Made by a program: the position numbers and the translations under genes. The notes under the pieces were generated by a model that saw only the letters and a program-made list of their open reading frames with translations, did no database searches and was not told the DNA's origin. Of a stretch of 33,358 nucleotides of DNA, positions 319 through 6,601 are shown one piece after another. Origin of the DNA: Deltaproteobacteria bacterium (GTDB taxonomy: Bacteria > Desulfobacterota > Dissulfuribacteria > Dissulfuribacterales > QOAL01); assembly GCA_026992735.1 (NCBI GenBank), contig JALWYO010000132.1, positions 1-33,358 of the forward strand, in the 5' to 3' direction. How positions within the stretch are numbered: position 1 is the first letter of the stretch; every line of letters starts with the position of its first letter.

Positions 319-1150
319 TCAGTTGACCATGTAGTCGCACTGGCCGTCGCCATCAGCGTCTTCGAAACCAGAACCTTGCTTGGTGGCCGGACCCCTTGTT
401 GCCGCGACCCTGCTGCATACTGCCATCAGGCTGGGAGGAAAAACCGCCCATAGGATTACCCTTCCTGTCCACAGGACCTCTTTCATAGTCAGTGGCATTT
501 ATTGCATCCACTTCTTCCTGTGTCAGATACTGGGCGATGTAACTGATGCCAAGGTCAGCCAGTCTGGAACAGAAGGCCCTCATATGATTCCTGGAGCCCT
601 TGACCAGGTTCTGATAAACGGTCAGTATGTCATCATTATCAGCGGAAGACATCAATGCTTCCAGGTCCTTGATATCCAGATCTTCTATGGTTGCGCCTAC
701 ATGCAATGCCTCTGCAAGGCCCTGGGAACCTCTTTCCGTGAGGTTGAGATAGAGTTCCTGCACCTCTGGTGAATTAAATTGACCTGGACCCATGGCATCT
801 ACCGGGTCAGCGATGCCATACTTGTCAAGCAGGGCCTTTATGGCATCCATGTGACGCTGTTCAGACTGAGAAATCTTGTCAAAGACCGGGGCCTGAAACA
901 TGTCATAGAGGTACATATACACATCTCTTGCCAGTTTTTCCTCCTCGCGCATCTTTAACATGCCTTCCTGTTCAGCCTGGCTCAAATCCTGGTAGGGAAG
1001 CTGAGAAACCCCGGATGAGCAAGGGCAGTTGACTGCCTGCTGCTTGTTCCCGTTTGATTTGCCGTTTCCAGATGCCATGGCCGTATTCATGCTGAATCCC
1101 ATTGCCATCAATACAGTGATACAAAGATAAAATATTCCTGATCTCTTCAT
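319..1150 (-). CDS. DUF2202 (ferritin-like) domain secreted protein; annotated ORF stops at 353 but reading appears to continue to 319 after a 1-nt frameshift
   Basis: Signal peptide MKRSGIFYLCITVLMAMGFSMNTAMA, then EEKLARDVYMYLYDMF...FDKISQSEQRHMDAIKALLDKYGI typical of DUF2202. The alternative frame at the 3' end encodes ATKQGSGFEDADGDGQCDYMVN*. Confidence 0.8.
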
Positions 1151-1217: not shown

Positions 1218-1577
1218 TTATCTGTGCCCCCGACCATGTCCATTTCCACTGCCGGAACAGCAGCCACCTGAACCACCAGCACCCTGGCCCCATTGTCCCT
1301 GACCATAGTGATGACCTTGACCACTATTGCCACTGCCACGAGAACCCCAACCCCTGGAATATTGGGCGCGTTCTTCAGGAGAGGCTTCCTGCATCTTCTG
1401 GCGCCAGGCATCTCTGAAGGCATTTCTCTCCTCCTGAGACTTGTCCATCATGCTGCCCCTCATCTGGGAGAGTTCCTGCAGGGTGTAACTGCTGTAATCA
1501 GTTGCCATAACTGGCCCTGCCACAAAAAGCGCACATGTTGCTGCCACTAGTACCTTAGTCGTCCAATTTTTTTTCAT
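1218..1577 (-). CDS. Small periplasmic ZraP-like / Spy-like protein with Gly/His/Cys-rich tail
   Basis: Start at MKKNWTTKVLVAATCALFVAGPVMA with AGGAGG upstream (complement around 1589-1595); helical Arg/Glu/Met-rich core (MRGSMMDKSQEERNAFRDAWRQKMQEASPEERAQY) and tail GCCSGSGNGHGRGHR; sits beside a ZraSR-like pair. Confidence 0.6.
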   Translation of the reverse strand: MKKNWTTKVLVAATCALFVAGPVMATDYSSYTLQELSQMRGSMMDKSQEERNAFRDAWRQKMQEASPEERAQYSRGWGSRGSGNSGQGHHYGQGQWGQGAGGSGGCCSGSGNGHGRGHR

Positions 1578-1630
1578 CTTGTCAATTCCTCCTTGAGTGA
1601 GTTTTTTTCGTGTTTCTTGACCTATGCTAT

Positions 1631-1645
1631 TCAAGGATCGTGCCA
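1631..1645 (-). promoter_or_regulatory. Candidate sigma-54 promoter (-24/-12) for the ZraP-like/DUF2202 operon
   Basis: Minus-strand TGGCACGATCCTTGA; matches TGGCACG-N4-TTG with correct spacing, ending GA rather than GC. Confidence 0.6.
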
Positions 1646-1741
1646 AGTCGGGTTAATCAACATTTATCCTTTAAAAACAATTGATTATGTTGCGATGTTT
1701 CTGGAAACACCCCGGCACGGCTCGACAAATCCTTCCTATGG

Positions 1742-1759
1742 CTCGACAATATTGTCGAG
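1742..1759. promoter_or_regulatory. Perfect 18-bp palindrome CTCGACAATATTGTCGAG, candidate enhancer (UAS) for a sigma-54 activator
   Basis: Self-complementary over 18 nt; half-site GGCTCGACAA also at 1719-1728, 21 bp from its copy at 1740-1749. Confidence 0.6.
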
Positions 1760-1850
1760 GCGTGCGGACAGGACCGTGGCATCCAGGGCTTCTACCTGCA
1801 AGGAATCGGGTGTCCTGTAAACAAAACATAGAGAACTGCCATGGAATCCG

Positions 1851-1868
1851 TTGGTACTGTTATTGCAT
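1851..1868 (+). promoter_or_regulatory. Candidate sigma-54 promoter for the plus-strand operon
   Basis: TTGGTACTGTTATTGCAT; GG-N10-GC spacing and TTGCA element. Confidence 0.55.
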
Positions 1869-1930: not shown

Positions 1931-2413
1931 ATGACAACAGGCCGAATCTGTAGAAAACTGGTGATCAAATTGATTTTATCAAAATTCTTGAAATCTCTTT
2001 TCATATCTTTAATGCTTTGCATATCCAGCCATATGGCCATCGGTACCGCTCCGGCCAATGCCTCTGAACCGGTAAATGCGCTGGTAAAAGGTCTGGACCG
2101 CCAGGCAGGCACCATAATCATCCAGCCCTTTGGCAGCACTGAACAGAAAAGGGTATCCATGGACTCCCTGCAGGAATCACCTGAAGGATCGGCCAACATT
2201 ACTACAGGATCGCGAATCAGGATCTGGATATCTACAGGAAAAGATGGATCGTTCAGAGCAGACAGAATCCTGATGCTTAGACGCTGTGACTGCACGGGGA
2301 CAAGACGCAGACTCAGGATGGGGATAGGAAGGTTGGGGCATGACTCCTCATCCATGCAGCCAGGCATGGGCTGCCGCTGCCAGTGGCATATGGAAAACCG
2401 GTGTGAACAATAA
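1931..2413 (+). CDS. Small secreted hypothetical protein upstream of the sensor kinase
   Basis: In-frame ATG at 1931 gives a signal-peptide-like N-terminus (MTTGRICRKLVIKLILSKFLKSLFISLMLC...APANA); this start lies downstream of the putative promoter, unlike the ORF-track start at 1841. Confidence 0.45.
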   Translation: MTTGRICRKLVIKLILSKFLKSLFISLMLCISSHMAIGTAPANASEPVNALVKGLDRQAGTIIIQPFGSTEQKRVSMDSLQESPEGSANITTGSRIRIWISTGKDGSFRADRILMLRRCDCTGTRRRLRMGIGRLGHDSSSMQPGMGCRCQWHMENRCEQ

Positions 2414-4025
2414 GCCCATTTGCAGTTCAGAAGACAGCCGGACCTGTCCAGACCTCTGGAAGGCGAATCTTGCGGCCTTCCTCGCCATCCTTACAGTAGC
2501 AATCTCCGTTGCAGTCTGGCAAAGCCGGTACTTAGACCAGGCATTCATGGAAGATGCCAGGGATCACGCAAGGCTTGCCGCTGAGATAATCAGGCTGAAT
2601 GCACAAAACGCCATAGAGGCCAAGCAAACAAGCAGGAAAATTATTTCAAGCTTTCTCAAAAGCCAGGCCAGGTTCATCGAATATCTTCAACAGACAGAGC
2701 CGTTCACGCAGGGGGAACTCTCGGCATTTGCAGCCGAGGCAGGCCTTGCGGGAATAACCATCCTGGCACAGTTTGACAAGGCGCCTGTTGAAAGCAAAGA
2801 AGGATGGGCTGGCAAAGAAAAAGACATAAAACACCTGTGCCAGGCAGAACCTGGTCTCCATGTGAATCGGGACAGAAAGATATTCTTTTTTGTAAGCCCG
2901 GCGCGTCCCGTGAAACATCCATGTATCATTACAGGCATTGATGCAGGCAGCGTGCTGGCCATACAGGAACGAATAAGCCTTGACAACATATTGAAACAGG
3001 TCTCAGGCCTTGCAGGGGTAAAGTTTGTATACATAGCCGACCGTGAAACCGTATGCACACAGAAAAATGGCTGGGATTGCCCGCAATCAGCCAGCGGCAG
3101 AGGTGCTGTCAGCTACATGAACGGTCCTGATGGACCGGTGGTAAAGGTCCACTTTCCATTTGACAAGCAACGCCTGCTGATACTGGGAATGGATGCATCT
3201 TCCCTTCAGGAGAGACAGCATAATATATGGATTCTCTTGGGGATCTTCTCTATGGCTTTATGCCTGGCAGGGGGACTGGTAACGTGGTGGCTTTACAGGC
3301 ATCAGGCCGCATATCTTGCCAGGATGCAGGATTACGACAGGCAGCTCCTGGAAAAACGCCACGAGGCCAGCCTTGGACGCTCTGCCGCAATCATTGCCCA
3401 TGAGATAAGAAACCCGCTGAACAGTGTCTCCATGGGGATACAGAAACTCATCATAAATTCAGACAGTCTGTCTGGCAAACAGGCCGATATCCTGAGACTT
3501 CTGCAAGGCGAACTGGCCCGGACAGAGAAAATCATAGCCGGGCTGCTGAGTTATGCCAGGCCCATCACGCCGGACAGGCGCCCCCTGCTGCTCTCCGGGG
3601 AGATCAGGAAGGCCCTGTCCAGCCTTGAAGCAAGGCACCGGAGGCGCAATACAGGAATAGACCTGAAAATCATGGATGAAATCCAGGTGACTGCCGACCC
3701 ATTACTGATAAGGCAGGTATTTGAAAATACCATAGGCAATGCAATGGAGGCACAGCCTGAGGGAGGAACCATATCCATAGAACTTTCCACATGGAACGGA
3801 TATCAGACAGTGAGGATATCCAACAAGGGAGATGTGCCTGGAGCAGAATTCATGCGCCACATATTTGAACCATATACCACCGGCAAAACCAAGGGGACGG
3901 GCCTGGGGCTTGCCATCTGCAGGCGTATCATTGCAGCTCATTCCGGCTATATCAGGGCCTGGACAGAAAACGATACCTTTTTCCTGGAAATAGGCATTCC
4001 CCTGCAAGAGGATACTGGAGGCTGA
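2403..4025 (+). CDS. Membrane sensor histidine kinase, ZraS-like
   Basis: Two TM segments flanking a periplasmic domain; HEIRNPLNSVSMGIQKL H-box, NAMEAQPEGG N-box, GTGLGLAICRRI G-box; GTG start at 2403 overlapping the upstream stop. Confidence 0.8.
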   Translation: MNNKPICSSEDSRTCPDLWKANLAAFLAILTVAISVAVWQSRYLDQAFMEDARDHARLAAEIIRLNAQNAIEAKQTSRKIISSFLKSQARFIEYLQQTEPFTQGELSAFAAEAGLAGITILAQFDKAPVESKEGWAGKEKDIKHLCQAEPGLHVNRDRKIFFFVSPARPVKHPCIITGIDAGSVLAIQERISLDNILKQVSGLAGVKFVYIADRETVCTQKNGWDCPQSASGRGAVSYMNGPDGPVVKVHFPFDKQRLLILGMDASSLQERQHNIWILLGIFSMALCLAGGLVTWWLYRHQAAYLARMQDYDRQLLEKRHEASLGRSAAIIAHEIRNPLNSVSMGIQKLIINSDSLSGKQADILRLLQGELARTEKIIAGLLSYARPITPDRRPLLLSGEIRKALSSLEARHRRRNTGIDLKIMDEIQVTADPLLIRQVFENTIGNAMEAQPEGGTISIELSTWNGYQTVRISNKGDVPGAEFMRHIFEPYTTGKTKGTGLGLAICRRIIAAHSGYIRAWTENDTFFLEIGIPLQEDTGG

Positions 4026-4029
4026 TTAC

Positions 4030-5364
4030 ATGAAGATCCTGATAGTAGACGATGAGCCAGTCCAGAGGACTATCCTGAAGCAGTTCCTGGAAGAACAGGG
4101 TTTTCGGGTGGCGGAAGCGGAAGACGGGGCACAGGCCGTATCCCTGTTTAGAAAGGAATTCATGCCCATTGTACTGCTTGATCATCGAATGCCAGACATG
4201 AATGGTGACAAGGTACTTGCCATGCTGAAGGAGATAAATCCCACAGCCAGGGTAATAATGATAACGGCCTATGGAGCCGTGGATACTGCCGTAAACTGCA
4301 TGAAGCTCGGTGCGTCTGATTTCCTGGAAAAGCCGGTGGATCTCGAACTGCTCATGGAGAAGATAAGGGTCCTGGCCAATGATATAGAGACCGATTCAGA
4401 TATTCGGGCAGTCAGCAGGGGAATAGAGAAGACAAAGCTGCCAGGCACGTTCATAGGCAACAGCCCTCTGATGAAGGAAGCGGTATCCACGGCAAGCAGG
4501 GTGGCGCCAACACCCTGGCCGGTGCTCATCTACGGGGAAACAGGCACCGGGAAGGAGCTCATGGCAAGGCTGGTCCATGAGCTGAGCCCGAGAAAAAATG
4601 AGCATTTCATGGATGTCAACTGTGCGGCAATACCTGAAAACCTCTTTGAAAGCGAGTTGTTCGGCCATGTCAAGGGTGCGTTTACCGGGGCTGCGAAGGA
4701 CAAAAAGGGCATATTTGAATTCGCCAAGGGGGGCACTGTCTTTCTGGATGAGATTGGCGAGATGCCGGAGCAGCTCCAGGCAAAAATGCTCAGGGTCCTG
4801 CAGGAACAGCAGATGACCCCTGTCGGAGGTCTTAGGCCCATAAAGCTGGACGTGAGGATTGTCGCAGCCACAAACAGGAATCTCAAAAGGCTCATTGACC
4901 AGGGACAATTCAGACAGGACCTGTACTTCCGCCTGAATGTATTCGAGATTCATCTGCCTCCCCTGAGGGAGAGAAGGGAGGACATACCCGAACTCGCCAC
5001 CTTCTTCCTCGAAAAATACGGGACAGGCTCCATGGACATTTCTCACGAGGCCATGGATATGCTGATCAAATACGACTGGCCGGGAAATGTCAGGGAACTG
5101 GAGCACATTATCCAGCGGCTGGTTACCCTGTGCCGGGGCAATGTGATAAGGGGTTCTGACATACCTGTTGACCTGCAACACCAGTCTGAAGGCCCGGCAG
5201 ACCTGGAAGCGCGTATCATGAAGCTGGAAAAGGAAGAGATAATGAAGGCCCTGAGGGCCAATGACTGGGTACAGACAAGGGCTGCAGAAATGCTGGGCAT
5301 CAGCGAGAGGGTGTTGAGATACAAGATGAAAAAATACGGCATCTCAAAAAAGGGGCGGGCCTGA
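4030..5364 (+). CDS. Sigma-54-dependent response regulator, ZraR/AtoC-like
   Basis: Receiver ILIVDDEPVQRTIL; GETGTGKELMA Walker A; ESELFGHVKGAFTGA (GAFTGA motif); FLDEIGEMP; C-terminal Fis-type HTH. Confidence 0.9.
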   Translation: MKILIVDDEPVQRTILKQFLEEQGFRVAEAEDGAQAVSLFRKEFMPIVLLDHRMPDMNGDKVLAMLKEINPTARVIMITAYGAVDTAVNCMKLGASDFLEKPVDLELLMEKIRVLANDIETDSDIRAVSRGIEKTKLPGTFIGNSPLMKEAVSTASRVAPTPWPVLIYGETGTGKELMARLVHELSPRKNEHFMDVNCAAIPENLFESELFGHVKGAFTGAAKDKKGIFEFAKGGTVFLDEIGEMPEQLQAKMLRVLQEQQMTPVGGLRPIKLDVRIVAATNRNLKRLIDQGQFRQDLYFRLNVFEIHLPPLRERREDIPELATFFLEKYGTGSMDISHEAMDMLIKYDWPGNVRELEHIIQRLVTLCRGNVIRGSDIPVDLQHQSEGPADLEARIMKLEKEEIMKALRANDWVQTRAAEMLGISERVLRYKMKKYGISKKGRA

Positions 5365-5365
5365 C

Positions 5366-6064
5366 ATGGCAGAAGGCCACAGGCAGCGCCTGCGCAACAG
5401 GTTCCTGGAATACGGCCTCGACTCCTTCACGGACGAAGAGATAGTAGAGATGCTGCTGGCCCTTGGAACCCCTAGAAAGGACTGCAAGAAACAGGCAAGA
5501 GAGCTGTGCAGCCGCTTTGGCTCCCTTGCCCTTGTACTGGAGGCTGACATTGACGAGCTGAGAAAGACGAGGGGCATAGGCCCGAATAATGCCTTTGCAG
5601 TCAAATTCATCCACGAGGTAGCGCGGAGGTTTCTGAAACAGAGGCTGAAAGAACGGCAGCAGGTACATTCAGCAGCAGACATGGTGGACTACCTGTGCCA
5701 CAGCCTTTCCTTCAGGGACAGGGAGATATTCATAACAGCATTCCTGGACGCAGCCAATGCTGTCATAGACATAGAGGAGGTCTTTGCCGGCACGGCAGAC
5801 AAGGCAGCGGTCTATCCCAGGGAAATCATGCGAAAGGCATTGCTGAAAAACGCAACCGGCCTCATATTTGCCCATAATCACCCATCAGGGTCCCTGAAAC
5901 CTTCAATGGCGGACAGGGAGATAACCAGCCAGCTCGTAAGTGCAGCCAAGGTGCTTGGCATCAGGGTCCTGGACCATATCATTGTAGGCGGCCCTTCAGA
6001 CTATTTCAGCTTTGCGGAAAACGGCCTGATGCCTCCTGTCTTGAAAAGAGGGGAAACAATGTAG
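5366..6064 (+). CDS. radC: RadC family JAB-domain protein
   Basis: HNHPSG...S..D JAMM motif (LIFAHNHPSGSLKPSMADREITSQL), N-terminal HhH-like region (TRGIGPNNAFAVK). Confidence 0.9.
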   Translation: MAEGHRQRLRNRFLEYGLDSFTDEEIVEMLLALGTPRKDCKKQARELCSRFGSLALVLEADIDELRKTRGIGPNNAFAVKFIHEVARRFLKQRLKERQQVHSAADMVDYLCHSLSFRDREIFITAFLDAANAVIDIEEVFAGTADKAAVYPREIMRKALLKNATGLIFAHNHPSGSLKPSMADREITSQLVSAAKVLGIRVLDHIIVGGPSDYFSFAENGLMPPVLKRGETM

Positions 6065-6175: not shown

Positions 6176-6601
6176 ATGAAAACTGTAATAGCGTGTAACT
6201 GTGTCCTGCTTATTATGGCAATGGCTGTGCTGACATGCGCTTATGCCATGACTCCTCAAGATTTCCAAAGAGCCGCAGAAAGGGCTGGGATCGACAGGGC
6301 TGTTGTGGATGCGCTTGCCGAGGGAATGGCTCCGGCCAAGATAGTCGAAGAAGCACTCAAGATCAAGGGAATGAAGTCCCAGGCGGTGCTAGCTGCCCTG
6401 TGCAAGGCAGGTGTTGACAAGGAAACCCTGGCAAAGGCTGCTGAGAAAAACCATGTTCCAGAGGTAATCTTTACATCAGCATGCAGGGAGTGTTCTATAT
6501 GGAAAGAGAACCACCCTCTGGCCATGGGGCCACATATACCAGGACATCCCGGTGGAAAACACAGGCACTCAGAGCCTTACACCAGCCAGTCAAGATTTTA
6601 A
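6176..6601 (+). CDS. Small secreted hypothetical protein
   Basis: Signal peptide MKTVIACNCVLLIMAMAVLTCAYA; two Cys near the C-terminus (CREC); preceded by GGAATGGGGGG. Confidence 0.6.
   Translation: MKTVIACNCVLLIMAMAVLTCAYAMTPQDFQRAAERAGIDRAVVDALAEGMAPAKIVEEALKIKGMKSQAVLAALCKAGVDKETLAKAAEKNHVPEVIFTSACRECSIWKENHPLAMGPHIPGHPGGKHRHSEPYTSQSRF

Follow-up and report, generated by a model that had tools for sequence, protein, structure and literature searches.

A probable palindromic enhancer shared by two divergent sigma-54 promoters, and its proposed control by the adjacent two-component system, in a genome of the Dissulfuribacterales

The window, i.e., the whole stretch of 33,358 nucleotides that was analyzed, carries a perfect palindrome flanked by two divergent sigma-54 promoters. 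Judging from the sequence and its comparison among relatives, we are strongly confident that the palindrome is a single enhancer shared by both promoters and controlled by the two-component system that the plus-strand operon encodes. The palindrome, a third half-site beside it and the sigma-54 promoters are kept within the genus and across the order. The features concerned are the following.

353-1150, minus strand: secreted DUF2202 protein, second gene of the minus transcript and a relative of MJ0754
1218-1577, minus strand: small secreted protein of 119 aa with a signal peptide, a helical domain and a Gly/His/Cys-rich tail; DUF1104/HP0721-like and placed where ZraP would be
1630-1645, minus strand: minus promoter (-24/-12), TGGCACGATCCTTGAA (TGGCACGATCCTTGA at 1631-1645), serving the small secreted protein and DUF2202 genes
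1632-1728, minus strand: compound element (half-site plus promoter)
1675-1687, plus strand: IHF-like site, AAACAATTGATTA, one mismatch to WATCAANNNNTTR, between the enhancer and the minus promoter
1722-1728, plus strand: third half-site, TCGACAA, 21 bp (about two turns) toward the minus promoter, its end 76 bp from the -24 T
1742-1759: enhancer (UAS), perfect palindrome CTCGACAATATTGTCGAG, core TCGACAA-N2-TTGTCGA at 1743-1758; unique in the genome at up to one mismatch, with order-wide conservation upstream of the same genes
1752-1865, plus strand: compound element (half-site plus promoter)
1852-1867, plus strand: plus promoter (-24/-12), TGGTACTGTTATTGCA (TTGGTACTGTTATTGCAT at 1851-1868), serving the SEC-kinase-regulator operon
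1931-2413, plus strand: SEC, a secreted protein of no known family that heads the plus operon, as its homologues do in relatives
2402-4025, plus strand: sensor histidine kinase; two membrane helices, Cache-like domain in the periplasm
4030-5364, plus strand: NtrC-family response regulator with a receiver, a GAFTGA AAA+ domain and a Fis-type HTH (Pfam; GAFTGA in the translation), the presumed enhancer binder

The start codon of SEC (1931) is the likeliest among several, and the GTG start of the kinase (2402) was deduced from the overlap with SEC, the longest open reading frame beginning at 2340.

Promoters and palindromic enhancer

Both promoters, the palindrome and the extra half-site 21 bp away were found where the first-pass annotation had placed them. 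Each promoter has the marks of the sigma-54 class, namely GG at -24 and TTG(C/A) at -12 with the right spacing between them, and the genome itself encodes RpoN (PF04552 at G000:C40, E 4.3e-64). Over the 23 loci compared, TGGCA and the G of the -12 element are invariant in the minus promoter, and TTG is found in 22 of them. Its description as sigma-54-like stands except for one detail, the -12 element reading TTGA rather than TTGC. This ending is not a defect, since A is the commonest base at that position among the relatives (15/23).

The palindrome occurs once in the window with up to three mismatches, against 0.00 expected, and the third half-site belongs to a direct repeat, GGCTCGACAA at 1719-1728 being an exact copy of 1740-1749, 21 bp apart. 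The search of the genome for similar sites that had been proposed covered 2.3 Mb in 137 contigs, and the palindrome was the sole match with at most one mismatch to the 14-base core. At two mismatches there were 11 matches vs. 23 in the reversed control; as these are no commoner than in the control, they were left out as targets. Decisive was the compound element, defined as TTGTCGA, 68-98 bp and a sigma-54 promoter (TTGTCGA-N68-98-TGGYAY-N5-TTG). It is present exactly twice in the genome, both times here and once per direction, while the reversed pattern gave none.

A perfect inverted repeat could also form a hairpin in RNA or DNA, acting as a terminator or attenuator, and the promoters would then be chance matches; indeed, sigma-54-like sites taken singly are no rarer than chance in the window (26 matches vs. 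24 expected with up to two mismatches). However, the palindrome has neither a loop nor a run of T, and no terminator was found around it. A hairpin does not explain the direct-repeat half-site, and it is already contradicted because this half-site and the promoter spacing are conserved. We thus regard it as having practically no chance of being right, and the enhancer reading is followed below.

Conservation among relatives

The compound site was detected in 25 of 60 relatives, compared with two that gave matches in the reversed control. In three genomes of the same genus (G001, G002, G003) and one of another genus in the same family (G015), the block TCGACAA, 14 bp, TCGACAA-N2-TTGTCGA and the minus promoter align unambiguously, whereas the sequence around enhancer and promoter has diverged. 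The half-sites hardly vary over the 23 loci; 18 of these loci have the third half-site with at most one mismatch, where chance would give about 0.9% per locus. In relatives of the genus, family and order, the secreted-protein gene is preceded, at approximately 140-200 bp, by the palindrome or a derivative of it. Three separate public records (L129, L134 and L142, 'Candidatus Desulfobia pelagia') likewise have a perfect palindrome before this gene. Relatives of the open reading frame at 1218-1577 are present in 19 of the 60 related genomes, its own included; a single query with the small secreted protein gave no match in the named genomes; the alignment, used as query, found 19 loci. In a scan of 297 genomes of the phylum for the three-half-site pattern with up to two mismatches, the exact matches were confined to the order. 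Most of the remaining ones lie inside open reading frames and look like chance matches; an intergenic one (L195) is described at the end.

Promoter spacing and the IHF-like site

In the window the palindrome is 97 bp from the -24 element on the minus side and 93 bp on the plus side, while in the three same-genus relatives the respective distances are 96-98 and 73-75 bp. The near-symmetry pointed out in the annotation is therefore real in the window but particular to this genome, and it does not hold as a conserved trait.

An element that the annotation had missed is the IHF-like site between the enhancer and the minus promoter. It is found with at most one mismatch in 13 of the 23 loci, compared with 2.4 in shuffled sequences (sd 1.4, maximum 8, 300 shuffles), and the 13-mer is fixed in orientation and in position relative to the -24 T. 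The loci fall into two spacing classes on the minus side. In the first, the palindrome is at 94-98 bp and the IHF-like site at -40 to -42; in the second, the palindrome is at 71-75 bp and the IHF-like site mostly at -29 to -31. Between the classes the displacement is about two helical turns for the enhancer and about one for the IHF-like site, and for this reason helical phase appears to be under selection at the minus promoter. The two classes also offer a natural data set on how far sigma-54 enhancers tolerate displacement. An IHF consensus between UAS and -24 is what an IHF-assisted sigma-54 promoter has at the sequence level, and the genome carries at least five genes of the HU/IHF family (PF00216), a family match that pools IHF with HU.

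Two observations count against a shared enhancer: the departure of the plus spacing from that of the relatives, by approximately 18-20 bp, and the lack of a conserved IHF-like site on the plus side among the compared loci. Together with the position of the third half-site on the side of the minus promoter, they would suit an enhancer that acts on the minus promoter only, the plus match being incidental and the kinase-regulator operon being read from another promoter. However, TGGTAY-N5-TTGC is kept at the plus promoter, at 73-75 bp, in all three same-genus genomes, and in a further genus homologues of SEC are preceded by TGGTAT-N5-TTGA (L102, L103, L106). In addition, the search for a sigma-70 promoter as the alternative returned one site vs. 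0.8 expected and nothing convincing. We thus believe that a minus-only enhancer is unlikely, and an enhancer serving both promoters is retained.

The neighboring two-component system

The annotation had described the product of the plus operon as a GAFTGA-type sigma-54 activator. A receiver, a GAFTGA-bearing AAA+ domain and a Fis-type HTH were all recognized in the regulator, and we infer that it binds the enhancer. The proposal that the palindrome is the autoregulatory UAS of this regulator, shared by both sides, gains support from genomic linkage: in 15 genomes with exact compound matches, the operator, which lies upstream of the SEC-kinase-regulator operon, and the HTH of the orthologous regulator are on one contig, about 3.2-4.6 kb apart. 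In several of these (G006, G009, G011, G014, G016, G017 and G022) the operator lies beside the kinase operon or its divergent neighbor, and no copy of the small secreted-protein gene is linked to it. In family f2, most genomes are devoid of the operator and the secreted protein as well as of a strong orthologue of the HTH, and the co-occurrence of HTH orthologue and operator gave a Fisher p of 1.9e-4 in a crude 2x2 count that ignores kinship.

The palindrome by itself names no binder. Each genome has several NtrC-family regulators with similar HTHs, and therefore another of them, or a repressor, could bind it, with the neighboring regulator acting elsewhere. Furthermore, in two genomes (G004 and G010) the operator is present but a strong HTH orthologue is not; in both, the contig ends near the site. 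Against a different binder stands the linkage of the operator to this very operon in the 15 genomes, which holds even where the small secreted-protein gene is elsewhere or absent (G006, G009, G014, G022). The site is also placed 71-98 bp upstream of sigma-54 promoters, which require an activator of this class. A different binder accordingly seems quite improbable to us, and the enhancer is very probably bound by the neighboring two-component activator, which would switch on both sides.

Regarding the kinase, a Cache-like fold was predicted for its periplasmic part (pLDDT 84), and Foldseek returned Cache sensor domains with a probability near 1 but low TM-scores. In the sensor segment (2454-3374) Cys 129, Cys 157 and Trp 118, numbered along the aligned segment, are invariant in nine relatives, and the two periplasmic cysteines might form a disulfide or metal-binding switch. 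The SEC proteins matched no Pfam family. That of the window (1931-2413) and those of L102, L103 and L106, from another genus, share a C-terminal motif like GHDxTGMKRRLRKA and are encoded ahead of the kinase gene.

Secreted proteins and the putative regulon

The family of the small secreted protein (14 members) matches HP0721 (PDB 2xrh) with an E of 7.8e-5; Pfam DUF1104 was found in 6 of the 14 and Metal_resist, the ZraP-type (CnrX-like) family, weakly in two, the best E being 0.0075. The protein of the window had no Pfam match at E<=1, and the comparison of its predicted fold with the PDB gave no useful match.

In relatives, the compound sites are neighbored by genes for the small secreted protein, DUF2202 proteins and the SEC-kinase-regulator operon, as well as by those for a second family of small secreted proteins, marked by the motif GTGP..IYDG. 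In G022 and G030 a lipoprotein with an OmpA domain and a glycine zipper is encoded beside a perfect palindrome. For a relative like G022, four sites are predicted, belonging to the small secreted protein, an EF-hand-like secreted protein, this lipoprotein and the kinase operon. Since all targets found are periplasmic, outer-membrane or regulatory, we conclude, from this sequence comparison, that the genes with compound sites would form an autoregulated envelope regulon under an NtrC-type activator. A connection of the regulon to metal or redox conditions is plausible.

The DUF2202 open reading frame appears to be disturbed at its 3' end (319-410, minus strand). It ends in ...GSGHQARFWFRRR, while another frame carries GFEDADGDGQCDYMVN, resembling the ends FTDMDGDGICDNMQD and FIDMNGDGICDNRQ of the relatives L036 and L037. 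Either a mutation or an assembly error has likely shifted the frame near 380-410. In the same two loci, which belong to the same genus, a second kinase/regulator pair lies just past DUF2202 (L036:4472-5584, L037:4065-5045); the contig of the window ends before that point.

Comparison with ZraPSR and other known systems

In the ZraPSR system of E. coli and Salmonella, ZraR is reported to control divergent sigma-54 promoters (PMC4987338), and ChIP-exo revealed only one extra direct target of E. coli ZraR, mgtA (PMC7657598). According to our reading of the E. coli zraP-zraSR region, a large inverted repeat is flanked by two outward sigma-54-like sites, at distances of about 42 and 51 bp. The likeness to the window is apparent in the layout, as here too a small secreted-protein gene diverges from an operon for a kinase and an NtrC-type regulator, with sigma-54 promoters on both sides of a shared inverted-repeat enhancer. 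Moreover, the regulator is 42% identical to ZraR, and the kinase is similar over its C-terminal half. The differences concern the components and the operator. The DUF2202 and SEC genes are extra here, the site is found at several envelope genes of relatives whereas mgtA is the only additional target in E. coli, and the half-site TCGACAA/TTGTCGA was absent, with up to one mismatch, from the E. coli zraP-zraSR intergenic region.

Homology of the small secreted protein to ZraP and orthology of the regulator to ZraR were both rejected. In hhalign, the 14-member profile of the small secreted protein aligned with ZraP with a probability of 2%, through the Gly-rich tail alone, and the regulator scored 362 bits against an NCBIfam ZraR cut-off of 760, the AtoC and NtrC models scoring higher. 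Of the zraP/zraSR resemblance put forward earlier, the layout was thus borne out, while ZraP homology and a common operator were not. With no E. coli half-site, no ZraP homology and a regulator that scores higher as AtoC or NtrC, the system, as judged from sequence, is one that works like ZraPSR in layout and is not a member of it.

NtrC- and NifA-type promoters have a UAS about 70-100 bp upstream of the -24/-12 element, an IHF site in between and tandem sites on one face. The locus resembles such IHF-bent promoters in the UAS distance, the intervening IHF-like site and the tandem sites on one helical face, and differs from other NtrC-family enhancers in having its own half-site, TCGACAA, and a fixed grammar in which a single half-site accompanies the palindrome at a distance of about 21 bp. 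As a string, the motif does not occur in the main texts of two surveys of sigma-54 and its regulators in D. vulgaris, which keep their motif tables in supplements.

HP0721 of H. pylori was isolated with a nickel affinity resin (PMC2225478). Both this protein and Pfam DUF1104 are matched by the family of the minus-strand protein, and the window protein differs in its Gly/His/Cys-rich tail; any metal binding by it is putative.

Proposed mechanism

In the mechanism that we propose, the kinase (2402-4025) would sense a periplasmic condition and phosphorylate the regulator (4030-5364), dimers of which would bind the palindrome. A further subunit or dimer on the third half-site, 21 bp off and on the same helix face, could then nucleate the hexamer. 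For the minus promoter, bending of the DNA by an IHF/HU-type protein would bring the AAA+ ring into contact with the sigma-54 polymerase at 1630-1645, and the promoter would open for transcription of the two minus-strand genes, which encode the DUF1104-like secreted protein and DUF2202. The assembly would also activate the plus promoter at 1852-1867 and raise the levels of the system's own kinase and regulator, in positive autoregulation. The regulon as a whole would constitute a periplasm or envelope response.

A broader and more speculative reading, which we put forward only tentatively, is that of an undescribed envelope-stress regulon of a mostly uncultured order, with its own three-half-site enhancer code and a ZraPSR layout reached independently. 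DUF1104 would be a periplasmic chaperone or metal-linked feedback protein, and the Cache sensor with its two invariant periplasmic cysteines a possible redox or metal switch. With this locus, an envelope response of bacteria known mainly from metagenomes gains a definite operator code and a short list of targets, and roles open to testing can be proposed for DUF1104 and DUF2202, families of unknown function.

Additional observations

A gene of the RadC family (5366-6064) begins 2 bp past the end of the regulator gene and is found in the same place in G001 and G002; a DNA-repair-type gene is puzzling as the last member of an envelope-response operon. After the operon, 6176-6601 encodes a small secreted protein with weak similarity, below the cut-off, to DUF2795/DUF5791, and no compound site precedes it. 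Finally, the scan of the phylum returned a three-half-site match with two mismatches from a distantly related genome (L195, G081:C2:203926-203962). It is intergenic, lies before small secreted-protein genes and may be real, possibly as part of the same regulon outside the order.
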